Below are positions 4,488-32,518 of a DNA stretch of 32,518 nt, in pieces. This stretch comes from a virus: positions 1 through 32,518 of IMG/VR virus record IMGVR_UViG_3300030060_005884; one strand, written 5' to 3'. The notes under the pieces were generated by a model, which saw nothing but the letters and a program-made list of their open reading frames with translations, was not told the origin of the DNA and did not search any database. Within the stretch, counting starts at the first letter, position 1. Each line of letters starts with the position of its first letter. Both the position numbers and the translations under genes were made by a program.

Positions 4488-4736
4488 ATGAAAACAGAAA
4501 TAAAACAACTTACAGCCCACGAGCTTATTTTAAAGCTGCAAGAGGCGGGAATTACTAACGAATACGTTAATAAAATACTTAACGAGGTTAAAATTGAAAA
4601 GCAAAAGGAATACGAAAACGGCCGAAAACATGGCTTTACTTACGCCTTAAACCTGGTTTACGACAAATTTAAAACCGCCCATAATTTCAATACTCAGTAC
4701 TTAAAAGAGTGGCTTACAAAACTAAGTTTAAAATGA
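4488..4736 (+). CDS. Hypothetical helical protein, 82 residues
   Basis: A charged, helical protein without recognisable motifs or membrane segments; residues about 25-50 could form a short coiled coil. The reading frame is bounded by a close upstream stop (two bases before the ATG) and an ATGA overlap with the next gene, so both ends fit the operon. Function unknown. Confidence 0.65.
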   Translation: MKTEIKQLTAHELILKLQEAGITNEYVNKILNEVKIEKQKEYENGRKHGFTYALNLVYDKFKTAHNFNTQYLKEWLTKLSLK

Positions 4737-4849
4737 GCTATTTTATTGAGGCGCTAAACGCTACGAGCTGGGCCAGGCTTTTATTTTATACTGTAACGCT
4801 TTTTTTAATACTGGCCGCCATTAAAAACATAATAACCCCCGAAAAATGA
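4733..4849 (+). CDS. Single-span membrane microprotein, 38 residues
   Basis: A short ORF held between two ATGA junctions: its ATG overlaps the stop of the previous gene (4733-4736) and its stop overlaps the ATG of the exonuclease gene (4846-4849), which strongly supports translation. It has a polar N-terminus of about 14 residues and one hydrophobic segment (RLLFYTVTLFLILAAI). Function unknown; it is co-translated with a nuclease and is one of three comparable membrane peptides in the early regions. Confidence 0.65.
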   Translation: MSYFIEALNATSWARLLFYTVTLFLILAAIKNIITPEK

Positions 4850-5619
4850 TAAAATTAAAACGCCCCCTTATTGTGTTTGATTTAGAAACTACGGGCCTGG
4901 ATTTCCACAAGGACCGTATTATACAAATAGCAATAATAAAAAAATTCCCAGGAACAAATAAAAAACCCCTTGAGGTTGTGCGATACGTAAACCCAGGCTT
5001 TAAAATACCGCCTGAGGTTACGGCTATACATGGAATAAAGGACGACGACGTAAAGGACGCCAAAACTTTTAAGGAAATGGCCCCAGGAATAGCCAAATTT
5101 ATAAAAGGCTGCGACGTAGTAGGCTACAATTCAAACCGCTTCGACGTTCCATTTTTACAAAGTGCCTTTGAACGTGCCGAAATTTACGACGCACTCAACG
5201 ACGTTGAATTTATCGACGTGTTCAACCTCTATTGCAAGTTTAACCCTCGCACGCTTTCCCAGGCCTATGCCGACTACTGCGGAAAACATTTAGAGGCCCA
5301 CAAAGCCGACGCCGACGCAAAGGCCACTATTGAGGTTTTAGAGGCTATTATCGACGAGCACAAGGACGAAATTAAGGCCCATAATTTAGAGGGGCCGACG
5401 GTTAAAACCTTGGCGGAAATGTCCCAAAAAACAAAAAAAATTGATATATTGGGGCGTATCGTGGAAAATGAAAAGGGCGAGGCTGTTTTTTCATTTGGTA
5501 AACACAAAGGAAAGGCGGTAACCTCTCAGCGTAACTATTGCAAATGGTTACTTGATAACGACGCTTTCACCGTGAATACTAAAGAAAAAATTAAACAAAT
5601 ATTAAACGCAAAAACATGA
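4846..5619 (+). CDS. DnaQ-family 3'-5' exonuclease with ExoX-like C-terminal segment
   Basis: Predicted metal-dependent exonuclease removing nucleotides from DNA 3' ends, possibly for proofreading, resection or nucleotide recycling. All DEDDh motifs are present: Exo I FDLETTG (Asp12, Glu14), Exo II with Asp100 in GYNSNRFD, and Exo III HKADAD with His152 and Asp157. After a linker, residues about 217-245 (FSFGKHKGKAV, then YCKWLL) resemble the small C-terminal domain of exodeoxyribonuclease X-type proteins. Length 257 fits a two-domain form. It is the only recognisable enzyme in the rightward operon; the next gene overlaps its stop as ATGA. There is no phage DNA polymerase, so any proofreading role would involve the host polymerase. 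Confidence 0.88.
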   Translation: MIKLKRPLIVFDLETTGLDFHKDRIIQIAIIKKFPGTNKKPLEVVRYVNPGFKIPPEVTAIHGIKDDDVKDAKTFKEMAPGIAKFIKGCDVVGYNSNRFDVPFLQSAFERAEIYDALNDVEFIDVFNLYCKFNPRTLSQAYADYCGKHLEAHKADADAKATIEVLEAIIDEHKDEIKAHNLEGPTVKTLAEMSQKTKKIDILGRIVENEKGEAVFSFGKHKGKAVTSQRNYCKWLLDNDAFTVNTKEKIKQILNAKT

Positions 5620-5819
5620 ACCCCGCCCCCAAAAAATTACAGGATAAAATCGAAACAGGAACCTACAAAAATTATGATTACGCCCAGGCAATTGAGACCG
5701 ATCCCGTATATATACAGGATAAAATCGAAAACTACGGCCTAATATTGGACGAAATTGCAAAAGCTTATTTTGACTTCCATTTAAACCGCTCCTTAGGGCT
5801 TAACTTTAATATGTATTAA
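5616..5819 (+). CDS. Hypothetical protein, 67 residues
   Basis: A small protein of unknown function with two related segments (LQDKIETGTYKNYDYAQAIE, then IQDKIENYGLILDEIAKAY), hinting at an internal duplication of about 25 residues. It starts on an ATGA overlap with the exonuclease gene and is directly followed by another microprotein ORF. Confidence 0.6.
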   Translation: MNPAPKKLQDKIETGTYKNYDYAQAIETDPVYIQDKIENYGLILDEIAKAYFDFHLNRSLGLNFNMY

Positions 5820-5912
5820 ATGGATAAAATTATTTTAAAAATTTGCTTTGTTTTTATTGCTTTGGCGATTGTGGCAATTAAGATAAAAGCAAAAAACAAA
5901 AGGGGCTATTAA
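5820..5912 (+). CDS. Single-span membrane microprotein, 30 residues
   Basis: The ATG at 5820 immediately follows the stop of the previous gene. The product is a hydrophobic helix (about residues 4-22, IILKICFVFIALAIVAIKI) with a Lys/Arg-rich tail, ending inside the terminator stem at 5910-5912. It is short, so coding is less certain than for the 38-residue peptide, but its placement and Lys-flanked membrane segment fit the operon style. Confidence 0.5.
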   Translation: MDKIILKICFVFIALAIVAIKIKAKNKRGY

Positions 5913-5926
5913 TAGCCCCTTTTTTC
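5899..5926 (+). terminator. Intrinsic terminator of the rightward operon, probably bidirectional
   Basis: A perfect 10-bp palindromic stem (5901-5910 with 5911-5920) is followed by six T on the plus strand. The opposite strand also has a T-rich run after the same stem, so it may also stop leftward transcripts. It lies between the rightward operon and the end of the leftward lysis genes. Confidence 0.85.
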
Positions 5927-5933
5927 TTACCCC

Positions 5934-5960
5934 TAAAAAAGTTGAAAGTTAAACTTTCAA
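5934..5960 (-). terminator. Intrinsic terminator of the leftward lysis and tail operon
   Basis: On the minus strand an 8-bp stem (5960-5953 with 5949-5942) with a 3-base loop is followed by C and six T. It overlaps the last codons and stop of the membrane protein gene ending at 5949. Confidence 0.7.
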
Positions 5961-27445: not shown

Positions 27446-28159
27446 TTAGGTCTGTGCATTAAATAAAGTTTCTTGCTTACCAGTCGTAATAATATTTTTT
27501 CCCCACCCTTTTAAAAAAACAGATTCTGTGGTGTTTGTTTGTGCCATACCTTGTATCTTCTTTAATGGTTTTAATTTTATCCAATCTGCTTTAGTGTTTT
27601 CGCAAACTATAATTTCGCCATTTAAACCATAAATCCAATCTTTCAACTTAGTGTAATCTATTTGTTTATGAATGTAATATTTGCCACCAAATTGGTAAGG
27701 CGGGTCAATAAACCAAGTAGCTTCTTTATTTTCAATATCTGTATAATCACAACATCTAATATCCCAATGTTTTATTTTATGTAAATTATTTAGTATGTTT
27801 TTTTTCGCAGTTACTTGGTTTCTCACACCTGCTTCTGTGCAAGTTAATCTTGGTGCGTTAACTCCTGCTTGTATCATAAAACCTAACAAGTCTTTTTCTT
27901 CTTTGCATACAAATTTAAAATTGTTTAGGTTTTCTCCTTTTTTTAATATTGGTAATTTTTCAATGTCTTTTATGCTTGCGTTTTGCAAGTACAACCATAT
28001 ATTAACAAGCCTTTCATACTTATCGCATATAATCACATCATTATCCCAATATTTTAAAGCGTATTTTGCACTTCCTGCAAATGGTTCTATTATCAATCCT
28101 TTTGTCGGTTTTGGATAGTAATTTACTACCTTACTTTTACTTCCGTAGTAACTCCACAT
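27446..28159 (-). CDS. DNA adenine-N6 methyltransferase, D12 class (Dam-like)
   Basis: Methylates adenine N6 in a DNA target. Motifs are YYGSKSK (residues 4-10), the SAM-binding EPFAGSAKYA (25-34) and the catalytic DPPY (152-155), as in Dam-type enzymes. Length 237 is close to the family. The gene looks foreign to its surroundings: two sampled lines of it have about 32-35% G+C by hand count against about 43% in a sampled line of the hub gene, and it uses GAT for Asp more often, where the phage genes prefer GAC. It sits alone between an unusual dyad and a weak terminator. Probably a late-acquired gene protecting against restriction or regulating by methylation; target unknown. Confidence 0.85.
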   Translation of the reverse strand: MWSYYGSKSKVVNYYPKPTKGLIIEPFAGSAKYALKYWDNDVIICDKYERLVNIWLYLQNASIKDIEKLPILKKGENLNNFKFVCKEEKDLLGFMIQAGVNAPRLTCTEAGVRNQVTAKKNILNNLHKIKHWDIRCCDYTDIENKEATWFIDPPYQFGGKYYIHKQIDYTKLKDWIYGLNGEIIVCENTKADWIKLKPLKKIQGMAQTNTTESVFLKGWGKNIITTGKQETLFNAQT

Positions 28160-28268: not shown

Positions 28269-28331
28269 TACAACAATGTATATACGCAATGCTTCCTATT
28301 GTCAGCACTTCGCATATACTCGTCCGTTATA
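28269..28331. repeat. Long imperfect dyad, attC-like
   Basis: TACAAC at 28269 and GTTATA at 28326-28331 bound two arms that are imperfect inverted copies, including GTATAT at 28278-28283 paired with ATATAC at 28314-28319 and GCAATGC-type inner arms around a short central region. The right edge overlaps the stop codon of the VRR-NUC gene. Such bulged dyads ending AAC/GTT resemble integron attC sites, but the core boxes do not fit RYYYAAC/GTTRRRY exactly. Confidence 0.4.
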
Positions 28332-28695
28332 GCAAATAATTATAAATTATCCGTGCCGCGTCCTCCGCATTGTCGGCCCATTCCACTAAGTTGCCCGCAT
28401 TTTTTAAACGGTCCATTTGTTTAACTTGCTCAGCCCTCGGCTTTTCCCCTGGCTTTTTAAGCTCCAAATATAAAGCGCCAAAGCCTTTTTTACTTACTGC
28501 GAGCGTTAAATCTGGATTCCCTTTAATTAAACCCATGGCCACAAGCTGGGCGCCTTGTATCTTATTGCGTGGGTTGTTAAAATTATGATACAGTAAACCC
28601 CTGTGCTCTTTGTATGTATTCCAAAACCATTTTATTAAAGCCGCTTGGTGTTGGCTTTCGGTTTTATATTTCGTGTTGTCAAGATCCATAAACAT
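28327..28695 (-). CDS. VRR-NUC domain nuclease
   Basis: Predicted PD-(D/E)XK nuclease of the VRR-NUC family, small stand-alone phage forms of which are associated with recombination or branched-DNA cutting. The core is GNPDLTLAV (residues 59-67), then ALYLELKKPGEKPRAEQ (74-90), with the D, E-x-K and Q positions expected. NFNNPRNK upstream is also typical. The 122-residue length fits. Start at ATG 28695 or two codons in. It is the last gene upstream (in transcription order) of the odd dyad and lies next to the iteron field. Confidence 0.82.
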   Translation of the reverse strand: MFMDLDNTKYKTESQHQAALIKWFWNTYKEHRGLLYHNFNNPRNKIQGAQLVAMGLIKGNPDLTLAVSKKGFGALYLELKKPGEKPRAEQVKQMDRLKNAGNLVEWADNAEDAARIIYNYLL

Positions 28696-28743: not shown

Positions 28744-28991
28744 GGTAACACCTTAAAAAGGTGTGTTACCGCCTTAGAGTCAACAGGGGCGGGGGTTTCC
28801 TCAAAAAGGTAACAGGTCTTACAGCCTCCCCATATAAGGGGTATTAAGGGGGCAATAAAAACGGGGTGCGTTTTTTTTTAAAAAGCTGAGGGCTGCTAAA
28901 ACGAAATTTAGTAAAGTGTGTTACCTTTTTATAGAAACCCTCGCCCCCACTGGCTCCAAGGCGGTAACACCTTAAAAAGGGGGTTGTTACC
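28744..28991. repeat. Large imperfect inverted repeat within the iteron field
   Basis: The block 28764-28814 is repeated in inverted orientation at 28919-28969 with 42 of 51 bases identical by hand alignment, nearly all differences being transitions. The flanking GGTAACACCTTAAAAAGG pieces at 28744 and 28963 extend each block to about 71-73 bp. The 104-bp spacer (28815-28918) contains a CCCC...GGGG hairpin and long T and A runs. Confidence 0.75.
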
Positions 28992-29010
28992 TTTTTGGAC
29001 CAAAACGGCT

Positions 29011-29100
29011 TAACTGTCTGATTTTCAAGCATGGCGGGTTTACAGATACGGGAAAACTCGTATGTTACCTTTTTTGAGGCTAACTGTCTGAAAATCAAGC
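29011..29100 (+). repeat. Two 20-bp direct repeats with a reversed core
   Basis: TAACTGTCTGATTTTCAAGC at 29011-29030 and TAACTGTCTGAAAATCAAGC at 29081-29100 lie 70 bp apart. They differ only in three central bases, so that the middle GATTTTC of one is the reverse complement of the middle of the other. They flank one iteron and may be a second protein-binding site of the origin. Confidence 0.6.
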
Positions 29101-29129
29101 TAAGTCGGTAACACACTTTTACAAAATTT

Positions 29130-31376
29130 TTAGAATGGAAAATCACCCGTTTTTGTAAAGTCCGTTTTTTTTTCGTTTTCGGGGTATAGAGCCTTACAGC
29201 GCTGGACTTTGTCGGTTTTTATAATTGTGTAAAATCGCCCGTTTTTACCAAATACCTTTCTTTGCTTAGTCGTAAACCCCAGATTCTTAAGTTCTTGGCT
29301 CATTTTCCATTGGTTTATTTTTGCATTTCCTGTAAGCTGTTCTTCAATGTAATTTTGTATTTCCGTCGCCGTCATAAATTCCTCCTGGTCCCCGCTTTCC
29401 TTAAATTCGACATTTTTAAAGAATTGGTTTATTAATTCCCTTTCCCTGTTAATGGTTTCAAAATTTAAAGTATTTCGGTTTAATAGGTCTATTTCCTCGC
29501 GTGTTAAATGATGGGTAAACCCTGAGGCCCAAAGGTTGTAAACTTCAATAAATAGCTCCTTTTTATTTATCGAGTTATAAACGCCGTGATTTATGCTTTT
29601 AACGTTTAGCGGAATTATACGGCGGTTTCCTGTTGGATCATTTAGTACTGCGTCGTCGTTTGTTGTTCCCCCAAGTACTGCCAAACGTTTTAAAGTAACA
29701 TTTTTACGCCCGTACGGCTCCCTTAGTGTAAAGTCCGCCTTGCTTGTAAGCTCCTTTAATCGCTTGGCCTCCTGTTTACTTTTCCCCCCGAGTTCGTCGT
29801 CTATTATTAATAGTTTTTGAGTCATTAAAATTTCGTCGTCCTTTCCCGCGTCAAGTTTTGACTCGGCGTAATATTTCCCCAGCTCCTTGGGTAGTAACCG
29901 CCTAAAAAATTCCGTTTTCCCTGTCCCTTGTCCTCCACAAAGGGCCAAAAATAGGGGGCTATGTTCCCAATGGGCTGCGCTAACTATTCCTATTAGCCAT
30001 TTAGTTATAAATATATACTTATAAGAGGGGTTTAAATCATTTATTCCCGTGTCCGTGTCTATTGAGTCGCAAAGCTTAGTAATTAAGCCCTCAGGCTTTA
30101 AATGTGCGTTATTATTAAAAAAGTCCTGTATGGGGTTGTAAGACTCTATAAAGTCCGAGCCGATTAATTTCTCTACAATTTCAAAGCTTGTTTTTTCGCT
30201 TACTATTCGCCGAGCTTGTAGCCAAACGGAATTTATAAAAACACTGTCCACTTCCTGGCCGTTGTTTTCTATGTAGCGGGTTACGTCGTTTCTTTTAAGG
30301 TTGTAATTATTTTTTAAAAATAGCTCCACTTGCTCCAGGTGGCTAAGTTCCTCCGTTAATCGTAAGTCCGTTTTTGAGTCGTAAATTTTATTTACTATTT
30401 CGGTGGAAAATTTCGGCTCTATTTTATCGACTTGCTCAAGTAATTTTATTACGTCCTCCCGCTTTCGTGCCCCTCTTTTCCCCATTTTAGAAACTGCTAC
30501 CACGTGTTTGGTTTCCTTGCTTACAAGGTCTAAATTTGCCTCCTTAGCGTAATAAAATAAAGTTGCTATTTTAACGCCGTTACCTTTTGACTTAATACAA
30601 TGGTCGTATTGTTTCTCGCAAACGTCGTTTTTATATTTTTCGCTGTAGTAGCTTATCGCGTGGTAATATTGGCGCCCTCCCGCTCCATACTCCGAGGCAA
30701 TGGCGAAACCAATTTCAAGCCAAATATGATAAGAGGACCGCGTAATATCAATTTTACGCTCGTTTATTTGCTCAATTATATATTCAATATCCTTTTGCCC
30801 TGTTATTATGTTAGGCAATTTTTGAACTATTTCGCTTTTCTTGAGGAAGTTTGAATAAGTGGCCGCCTTGGGGTTTATATATGCGTTTGGATCGTAAGAA
30901 ACAAAGCGGGGCCGCGTAACGTCTTTACAACTTTTATCGAGTATTATTTGGAATTTTTCTAAATAATAACGCTCTAAAGCCAAAAAGCTTTCAAGGTGCT
31001 TTTTTGGGTTTATCTTAATTAAAACAGCTATGCCAAGCCCCGAGGCGCTTTTAAAAGCCCCGTATGTGTGTTTATCCTGGGTTACGTTGTCCCAGTCCTT
31101 TCCAAGGTCGGCGCTGTCGTCAATATCAAGGCAAATAAAGCCACTGTGTTTTTTAAGGCCCTCTTTGTTTCTTATCTCAGGATAAAGCCCCGAGATTGTC
31201 ACGTATGGAAGTGTATTTTCTTTTAAAGTTTTACGCTTTTTTTTGTTCGGCTCGTTATTTATTGGCTCGATTAGGTGTTTAAAGGTGCCATGCTTTACGC
31301 TGTTTAAAAACTCAATTATTGTAGTTTCTCGCTCAGGATTATGGGCGAAAATTTTGGGGAAAAAAGAAATATTCAT
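29130..31376 (-). CDS. Primase-helicase (BT4734/VirE-N primase, PriCT and VapE-type ATPase)
   Basis: Predicted replication initiator that primes and unwinds phage DNA. Residues about 50-190 form the BT4734/VirE-N (archaeo-eukaryotic primase-like) domain: YVTISGLYPEIRN, HSGFICLDIDD (acidic metal site at 84-87) and TRPRFVSYDPNAY. Residues about 195-280 resemble PriCT (WLEIGFAIASEYGAGGRQYY, ATLFYYAKEA). The ATPase follows with Walker A GGQGTGKT (481-488), Walker B LLIIDDE (522-528) and a sensor-like GGTTNDD. The last 90 residues (NAKINQWKMSQELKNLGF) look like a winged helix. The stop is 17 bp from the iteron field, the expected place for its origin. Confidence 0.88.
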   Translation of the reverse strand: MNISFFPKIFAHNPERETTIIEFLNSVKHGTFKHLIEPINNEPNKKKRKTLKENTLPYVTISGLYPEIRNKEGLKKHSGFICLDIDDSADLGKDWDNVTQDKHTYGAFKSASGLGIAVLIKINPKKHLESFLALERYYLEKFQIILDKSCKDVTRPRFVSYDPNAYINPKAATYSNFLKKSEIVQKLPNIITGQKDIEYIIEQINERKIDITRSSYHIWLEIGFAIASEYGAGGRQYYHAISYYSEKYKNDVCEKQYDHCIKSKGNGVKIATLFYYAKEANLDLVSKETKHVVAVSKMGKRGARKREDVIKLLEQVDKIEPKFSTEIVNKIYDSKTDLRLTEELSHLEQVELFLKNNYNLKRNDVTRYIENNGQEVDSVFINSVWLQARRIVSEKTSFEIVEKLIGSDFIESYNPIQDFFNNNAHLKPEGLITKLCDSIDTDTGINDLNPSYKYIFITKWLIGIVSAAHWEHSPLFLALCGGQGTGKTEFFRRLLPKELGKYYAESKLDAGKDDEILMTQKLLIIDDELGGKSKQEAKRLKELTSKADFTLREPYGRKNVTLKRLAVLGGTTNDDAVLNDPTGNRRIIPLNVKSINHGVYNSINKKELFIEVYNLWASGFTHHLTREEIDLLNRNTLNFETINRERELINQFFKNVEFKESGDQEEFMTATEIQNYIEEQLTGNAKINQWKMSQELKNLGFTTKQRKVFGKNGRFYTIIKTDKVQRCKALYPENEKKTDFTKTGDFPF

Positions 31377-31436: not shown

Positions 31437-32518
31437 TTAAATTTTGGAACGTTGCTTTAATTGTACGTAAACCCAAGCGGGTTTATAGCCCTTTTTAAGG
31501 GCGTAAATTTTAAGCTGCTCTTTGGTTGCTGTGCGTAAGTTTATTTTTTGCTCAGCCCCTCGCTGGCTATTTCTAAGGCCCTTTTTAACCTCTATAAAGT
31601 CGCCTTGCAAAAGTGCTTTTGCTTTTATTTTAAAGGGCTCTTTACACTCAAAGCAAATGCGGGCGCTGGCGTGGTTCATAGCCTCACACACGGGGCAAAG
31701 TTTTACGGGGGCCACGCCGTTGGTTTTCTTTCGCTCTTTAATTAGTTGCCAGGTCCTGGGCTCCTCCCAGAGTCCAAACTCGTAAACATTGCTTCCCATA
31801 TCTAAAACAATAAAATTGCTTTTGTTCTCGTGTATTCTTGATCCTCGCCCAGTCATTTGCAAGTAAAGGGGTAGGCTTTTTGTTGCCCTGTTAATTATTA
31901 CAGCTTCAATACTTGGCTCGTCGTACCCCGTTGTAAGTACTGAGCAATTAGATAAAATCAAAAATTTACCGTTTTTAAAGTCCTCCAAAATTTGCGCCCG
32001 CTCCTTTTTTGGCGTTGCCCCGTCCAAGTGCTTAGCGCTGTAGCCAGCGGCCAAAAACTCAGCAACCATTTTTTTACTATGTTCAATATTTACGTTAAAA
32101 ACAATTGTTTTTTTACCCTCGGCGTGTGTTTTGTACTTTTCAATTACGCCAGCGTAAAGCCTTGATTTATTGAACTGCTCGTATAAGGCCGCATTATTGT
32201 AGTCGTTACCTGTTATTTTTACCTGGCTAAAGTCCTCCTTTGCCGCGTAGGTTATGCACGGGACCAAGTACCCCTTTTCCAGTAGGTCGTCAATAGTTAC
32301 GGGCTCAATAATTTTATTGTAAACCTCGTGTAAGCTCCTTTGTTTTCCTGTCCTTAATGGCGTGGCGGTTGCTCCTATAATAAACGGATCGTGCGGGCTG
32401 TCCTTGTATTTTAAAATTATTTTATCAAAGGTTTGTTTGTGCGCCTCGTCAATTATTATTAAGTCCACGGCTGGCAGCTCCCGCCTTGTTAAGGTGTCCA
32501 CGCTTGCCAGGTAGCAAT
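31437..32518 (-). CDS. SF2 DNA helicase, C-terminal part, cut by the window edge
   Basis: The main body of the helicase whose N-terminus lies at 1-519. It has the DEAH box (VDLIIIDEAH), motif III GATATP, motif V region LSNCSVLTTGYDEP and motif VI QMTGRGSR, then a C-terminal four-cysteine zinc-ribbon-like CPVCEAMNHASARICFEC. The frame is open to the right edge: a GTG at 32501 sits within ASVDTL and is an internal Val codon. It lies 60 bases after (downstream of) nothing else on the minus strand and 60 bases before the primase gene start. The last 30 residues are basic (GYKPAWVYVQLKQRSKI). Probably acts at forks or origins during phage replication. Confidence 0.88.
   Translation of the reverse strand, partial: CYLASVDTLTRRELPAVDLIIIDEAHKQTFDKIILKYKDSPHDPFIIGATATPLRTGKQRSLHEVYNKIIEPVTIDDLLEKGYLVPCITYAAKEDFSQVKITGNDYNNAALYEQFNKSRLYAGVIEKYKTHAEGKKTIVFNVNIEHSKKMVAEFLAAGYSAKHLDGATPKKERAQILEDFKNGKFLILSNCSVLTTGYDEPSIEAVIINRATKSLPLYLQMTGRGSRIHENKSNFIVLDMGSNVYEFGLWEEPRTWQLIKERKKTNGVAPVKLCPVCEAMNHASARICFECKEPFKIKAKALLQGDFIEVKKGLRNSQRGAEQKINLRTATKEQLKIYALKKGYKPAWVYVQLKQRSKI
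32264..32518. repeat. Right copy of the contig-end overlap
   Basis: The last 255 bases match bases 1-255 with 14 mismatches and no gaps. This copy reads DDLLEKGYL where the left copy reads DDLLQKRYL. Twelve of the differences lie at third codon positions, so both copies look like functional, selected alleles. Confidence 0.85.

Follow-up and report, generated by a model that had tools for sequence, protein, structure and literature searches.

Positions 28,744 to 29,113 of the window, by which we mean the whole 32,518-bp stretch analysed here (an IMG/VR virus record), are with a probability of about 90% the replication origin of this phage: the wing of its primase-helicase would bind the heptamer GGTAACA, and two mirror-image sets of these iterons would load two helicase rings on the centre between them. 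The region is best explained as an origin of the type known from the SaPI/PICI satellites, in which iterons lie directly 3′ of the gene for a VapE-type primase-helicase, here found in a tailed phage. The sites, their mirror layout and its conservation, the linkage to the primase and the covariation between iteron bases and protein residues were all computed in this work.

The phage genes lie mostly on the minus strand, and the repeat stretch is flanked by the stop codon of the primase-helicase gene and the start of a VRR-NUC nuclease gene. The primase-helicase, the presumed initiator (748 aa; 29,130–31,376, minus strand), is identified by Pfam and PHROG matches, Foldseek and AlphaFold, with a further helicase gene at 31,437–32,516. 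The VRR-NUC gene (28,327–28,695, minus strand) is recognized by PHROG matches, its Pfam score being below the cut-off. Downstream of it follow a D12 methyltransferase, the small and large terminase and the portal, the terminase genes lying approximately 1.3 kb from the field, and this gene order places the repeats between the replication genes and the packaging genes. An open reading frame of 100 aa within the repeat stretch (28,844–29,146) matched no family, and the Rfam search gave no match. A search for a Rep_3 or RepA_N initiator gave no Rep family match; the gene adjoining the iterons is the primase-helicase. GC skew does not switch at the field, and the neighbouring genes are all on one strand.

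The first-pass annotation had listed eight exact copies of GGTAACA/TGTTACC in this stretch, and all eight are present. They fall into two flank types, A (TGTTACCGMCTTRG) and B (AAAAAGGTAACA). Type B sites occupy 28,744–28,750 (+, outer left), 28,808–28,814 (+, innermost left), 28,919–28,925 (−, innermost right), 28,985–28,991 (−) and 29,063–29,069 (−); type A sites occupy 28,764–28,770 (−), 28,963–28,969 (+) and 29,107–29,113 (+). The order is B+ A− B+, centre, B− A+ B−, and then an additional B− A+ module nearer the primase gene, the last site of which is 16 bp from the gene end. Each 51-bp module has a GCC/GACTTAG-flanked site at one end and an AAAAA-flanked site at the other. At the density of shuffled sequence, 370 bp would contain 0.05 copies of the heptamer, as against the eight observed. 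The whole window holds 14 copies (shuffle mean 4.2, maximum 9 among 100 shuffles); the heptamer is not common elsewhere in it, as the remaining six are scattered over 32 kb. The three pairs said to be spaced by 44 bp are exact, and TGTTACC-N37-GGTAACA is found nowhere else in the record; the 20-bp and 22-bp pairs are exact as well. The accompanying claim that most sites face the same side of the helix holds only roughly, because 44 bp correspond to 4.2 turns of 10.5 bp.

Two arms, 28,763–28,814 and 28,919–28,970, form an imperfect 52-bp inverted repeat (83% complementary), and this match delimits the predicted core origin at 28,763–28,970. The dyad centre between them (28,815–28,918), which is the presumed melting region, is marked in the sequence by A/T tracts and CCCCATATAAGGGG; its 104 bp are 59% A+T, equal to the window mean and not above it. 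Mirror triplets of iterons flank this centre, in the two-set manner of PICI origins, and the first iteron is met 16 bp after the primase stop codon, immediately 3′ of the gene as in PICIs. A second repeat, TAACTGTCTGA(TTTT/AAAA)TCAAGC, lies between the iteron modules at 29,011–29,030 and 29,081–29,100, 70 bp apart, and is also present in the close relatives L004–L006. A minus-strand hairpin, ACACCTT-TTT-AAGGTGT with TACCTTTTT behind it (28,748–28,764), overlaps the two outermost left iterons and could be a terminator.

The domain structure of the initiator provides insights on how such a field could be read. The protein comprises a BT4734-like N domain, PriCT_2, a VapE/DUF5906 helicase and a C-terminal winged helix. 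A VapE-like Pfam match (1e-29) together with DUF5906 places the helicase in the VapE/D5 type. The best Foldseek match is PriRep1 with dsDNA (PDB code 7pds; E 6e-15, and 4.5e-7 by phmmer), and this SaPI-type protein is the structure closest to the helicase half. The AlphaFold model (pLDDT 83) places the winged helix at residues 664–720, a domain that we also modelled alone, with strands at 665–668, 703–708 and 711–720 and helices at 670–680 and 689–698. Predicted structure and covariation (see below) point to its codons (29,217–29,387, minus strand) as those of the iteron reader; the wing codons 707–714, delimited by covariation in the L074 clade of relatives, lie at 29,235–29,258 (minus strand) and encode K707, N712 and R714. 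The top structural neighbour of the isolated C-terminal domain is RFX5 (PDB code 8zjr; rank 1, Z 7.8, rmsd 3.2, 77 residues aligned), and RFX1 (PDB code 1dp7) aligns with Z 6.7 and rmsd 3.2 over 71 residues; the likeness is limited to the reader domain, a Z below 8 is a middling match that may reflect the common fold only, many unrelated winged helices score within 1 Z unit, and we claim no relationship. RFX1 reads DNA with its wing.

Relatives of the primase-helicase are numerous, with approximately 190 related loci largely on viral contigs. According to a detector that requires an over-represented hexamer and an inverted central gap of 80–150 bp, 161 of the 193 distinct loci have an iteron field 3′ of the primase gene, compared with 258 of 3256 control stretches (7.9%) from the same loci; the window itself counted as positive after the T-run mask was removed. 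As the field adjoins the primase-helicase in most of these loci, this arrangement is widespread outside satellites. Where a field is present, its first site is mostly within 20 bp of the primase stop codon. The next gene after the field is VRR-NUC-like in 24 of the 49 distinct loci with a callable next open reading frame, and otherwise a helicase, a methyltransferase or another gene. The field goes with the primase-helicase, which is its constant neighbour, and VRR-NUC is not a constant part. The layout extends beyond a single lineage: an inverted central gap of 82–84 bp with flanking sites occurs in the streptococcal satellite Javan325 and in Lactobacillus phage phiJB, and a field of GGTAACC sites in Flavobacterium phage mumin6-4. 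The detector returned no field in about one-sixth of the relatives (~17%), which retain the winged helix (L025, L028, L049 and L065, for example); in some of these the origin must lie elsewhere or be degenerate. No clear field was seen 3′ of the primase in Nonlabens P12024L, Cellulophaga phi46:1 or Bacteroides BT566P2.

The repeat itself changes from relative to relative (CTGTAAC, CCTTAAC, CCTTTAC, GGTAGTA, GTGGTAA, TGGACCA, TGCACCA, GGTTGCA and others), and the spacing is kept even where the heptamer has changed. This persistence, together with the rarity of the heptamer elsewhere in the window, supports the first-pass proposal of an origin. Pair distances were first compared with a null model of random placement, which they exceeded throughout all trials for direct pairs at 7–11 bp and inverted pairs at 40–47 bp, and not in the bins for inverted pairs at 19–25 and 97–109 bp; offsets from the innermost site, measured over 52 region clusters without sequence similarity, then took the place of this model. 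Inward-facing sites lie 8–11 and 17–20 bp from the innermost pair and again at 63–68, 72–77 and 84–86 bp, with almost none at 21–62 bp, and outward-facing sites peak at 42–44 and 51–53 bp. Lineages with different iterons share a layout with a centre of about 105 bp (a length that is partly selected, because the detector rewards the presence of a gap; the other distances are unaffected), an outward site 42–53 bp out and inward sites at 63–86 bp. The window, with offsets of 44 and 64–66 bp and a gap of 111 bp, fits this common layout. The best-fitting period over 51 unrelated fields is 11 bp, with a strength of 0.49 as compared to at most 0.21 in jittered controls evaluated at 10.2–10.8 bp. The four closest sequences agree with each other in 51 of 56 site columns, compared with 249 of 394 spacer columns; in L004–L006, the three closest relatives compared, the sites are retained and the spacer varies. 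The centre averages 72% A+T in relatives, against 65% for the whole region and 59% for the centre of the window.

The iteron sequence covaries with the wing. When motif and protein domain were correlated across the full set of 160 loci, the signal was weak (partial 0.10 for the wHTH and 0.19 for the ATPase), probably because distant motifs cannot be aligned, and this approach was abandoned; the relationship is clear only within clades. For the L074 clade (70 loci) the partial correlation of the wHTH is 0.23, with other domains at or below 0.085, and the correlation with the iterons is strongest at residues 697–720, the wing, beyond overall relatedness. The winged helix also has the highest partial correlation in the window's own clade (0.48 over 15 loci, with the top segment at residues 681–692), and the partial Mantel p is 0.001 in both clades. 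Several protein regions correlate in clades 1 and 2, so that these correlations alone do not single out the wing.

Individual bases can be assigned to individual residues in the 70-locus clade. Base −5 is T where residue 707 is R or K, C where it is G, and G with other residues. Bases −4/−3 follow residue 712, being GA for K after S, AC for K after Q, TG for I or V and AT for L. Base −1 follows residue 714, with A for T or M, C for R or L and T for A. The variable iteron bases agree with residues 707, 711/712 and 714 in 70 of 70 loci, a count that includes three placements corrected by hand (the registers of L155 and L157 and the strand choice of L140) because the core was present but misplaced automatically; placement also used eight known cores as templates. 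When 364 variable protein columns were scanned, 707 ranked first for base −5, 712 for −4/−3 and 714 for −1. On a tree built on residues 1–640, which is only approximate given phage recombination, the core and its positions −5 and −4/−3 change approximately 18–25 times each; since the core itself changes about 25 times, the match with the wing is not one inherited coincidence. Tested against the raw fields, the 5-mer predicted by the rule scores above all other known cores in 67 of the 68 loci. Only a few loci make up the held-out set, and further relatives were mostly the same contigs. Here L162 and L343 fit the rule, L348 fits on inspection by hand, and L273 is uninformative, as two known cores occur in TTGCATCA. 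Residue 712 of L073 falls outside the rule.

The wing-iteron covariation strongly implies that the wing of the winged helix reads the iterons. For the window, K707, N712 and R714 are putative code positions carried over from the L074 clade, whose proteins are only 36–39% identical to that of the window. L015, a relative that also reads GGTAACA, has N at 712 as the window does, and the GGTTACA readers of the window's own clade have T, K or P there, which is consistent though the cases are few. Recognition of iterons by the C-terminal domain is a feature of PICI-type initiators, and for the protein of the window it is predicted from the strong covariation. In agreement with the earlier suggestion that the primase-helicase binds these heptamers, both the covariation and the analogy with SaPI Rep (PMC7581432) argue for it.

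Comparison of close pairs provides insights on how wing and origin switch. L117 and L122 share 99% identity over residues 1–640 and differ in three wing residues and in their iterons, L117 being of the TGGACA type and L122 of the GTTGCA type. Their DNA is approximately 95% identical up to the wing codons, mostly 40–50% identical through the field, and again approximately 95% in the next gene; the drop spares the (CA)n-rich centre. This pattern suggests a joint exchange of wing and origin, as one unit. Between L161 and L163 about 80% of the spacer is kept, T714 is replaced by R, and most visible sites read GTTGCC instead of GTTGCA. As the reader is encoded at the gene end and the origin lies directly behind the stop codon, within a few hundred bp, joint exchange by recombination is easy, and this ease may be the reason why the gene-origin arrangement is so constant. 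In the L074 clade (for example L117, L122 and L161) the origin centre consists of an extended (CA)n tract bordered by TATATA, some 130–170 bp after the primase stop, and it is conserved even where wing and iterons were exchanged.

Several other functions could be considered for such a field. A transcription regulator might bind the heptamers as operators or promoter elements that serve the VRR-NUC, methyltransferase and terminase genes; with respect to transcription the next gene indeed begins shortly after the field, and inverted repeats are also used by regulators. But the field stays with the primase as the next gene varies, promoter-like matches in it are no more frequent than in shuffles, and covariation with the winged helix of the primase is unexpected from a separate regulator, all of which makes this reading improbable. 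Alternatively, the small terminase or a partition protein might bind the repeats as a site for packaging (pac/cos) or partition, which would suit the proximity of the terminase genes. This is more improbable still, as a PICI and a Lactobacillus phage whose downstream genes are different likewise have such a field next to their primase gene, and the sequence of the field covaries with the primase. That the repeats arose by chance or recombination and have no function is hardly credible in view of the site count, the conservation of sites amid changing spacers, a geometry that is fixed while the sequence changes, and the co-switching with protein residues. A less distant alternative gives the same sites two uses, as origin and as autoregulatory operator, with the primase-helicase also restraining read-through into the late genes. 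Iteron plasmids commonly use the same sites in both ways, the field separates replication from packaging genes, and the terminator-like hairpin overlaps the outer sites; terminator-like matches, however, are close to the shuffle level (three found, shuffle mean 1.9), and we regard this dual use as possible though on balance doubtful.

For the preferred reading, a replication origin, the two-set organisation of PICI origins and the structural match to PriRep1 lead us to propose a ring-loading mechanism. The primase-helicase would bind both mirror sets of GGTAACA iterons through its wings, and one helicase ring would be assembled on each side of the centre. The central region would then melt and the rings would be loaded on the opened centre, where the protein's own primase domain would prime both forks for bidirectional replication. 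Actual binding, melting of the centre, the two rings and the bidirectional forks are what we infer from the computed features.

Short repeats bound by an element's own initiator are known from iteron plasmids (Rep_3/RepA) and from P4 (alpha and ori-crr), and Streptococcus thermophilus phages have origins near a primase gene. Rep_3 initiators, in contrast to the window's protein, are not helicases, and the window has no such domain; P4 differs in having two separated cis sites. The closest parallel is the rep-ori region of SaPIs and PICIs (SaPI Rep, SaPI5 PriRep1, E. coli PICIs), where the origin is immediately 3′ of rep as in the window (PMC6092414, PMC7581432). In every PICI origin two sets of iterons enclose an AT-rich region (PMC6092414), and the C-terminal domain of SaPI Rep recognizes iterons directly downstream of its gene (PMC7581432). 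The window shares the two sets of short iterons, around a putative melting region, and the VapE/D5-group helicase initiator, with a C-terminal domain predicted to read DNA; its initiator is an AEP-type primase fused to a helicase, as also described for SaPI5 Rep. The mirror layout of the satellite Javan325 is comparable. Unlike a PICI as a whole, the window encodes its own terminase, portal and tape-measure genes and is a tailed phage, not a satellite. SCCmec Cch2, a helicase that loads itself and uses its C-terminal domain to bind short repeats located directly behind its gene (PMC7581432), resembles the window in the downstream repeats and in the C-terminal reader (predicted in the window), but it has three iterons only, no mirror arrangement described, and a separate polymerase-type primase. 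In the archaeal plasmid pRN1, the single protein ORF904 carries a primase, an SF3-type helicase and a winged helix, and an essential region follows its gene immediately on the 3′ side (PMC4234260), a domain set and gene-element order that the window shares; the pRN1 origin element is a stem-loop, whereas that predicted for the window consists of iterons.

Phage VapE-type primase-helicases probably read their origins by a modular three-position wing code (707, 711/712 and 714) within a PICI-related layout phased at about 11 bp, with reader and origin switching together, as a cassette or in a concerted manner, to yield a private origin that perhaps escapes co-infecting phages and satellites. The open-access papers searched yielded no earlier report of a fixed layout or spacing or of a wing code, and no paper on such origins in Bacteroidetes phages. 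A fixed layout, a changing repeat and a three-position code would make origin recognition predictable from protein sequence and the co-evolution of initiator and origin directly testable, and would offer a simple route to locating origins in uncultured phages.

Some individual loci deserve mention. In L025, L028, L042, L049, L056, L064 and L065 the winged helix is intact and no field is visible 3′ of the primase gene; relocation of these origins is possible, and in L028 the sequence AAGATTG occurs eight times at the opposite end of the locus. In mumin6-4 (L086) a nuclease gene at 5037–5945, annotated by similarity to PF10544, lies between the primase and most of the field; a few GTTACCT sites remain directly behind the primase stop, and the nuclease gene looks inserted into the origin. 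The main plus-strand gene run of the window, the rest of which reads from the minus strand, is at 4488–5819 and contains a DnaQ-like exonuclease (RNase_T) at 4846–5619. Two DNA methyltransferase genes are present, at 969–1616 and 27,446–28,159; the latter encodes a short product of 237 aa, and its match to the D12 family covers the first part only.
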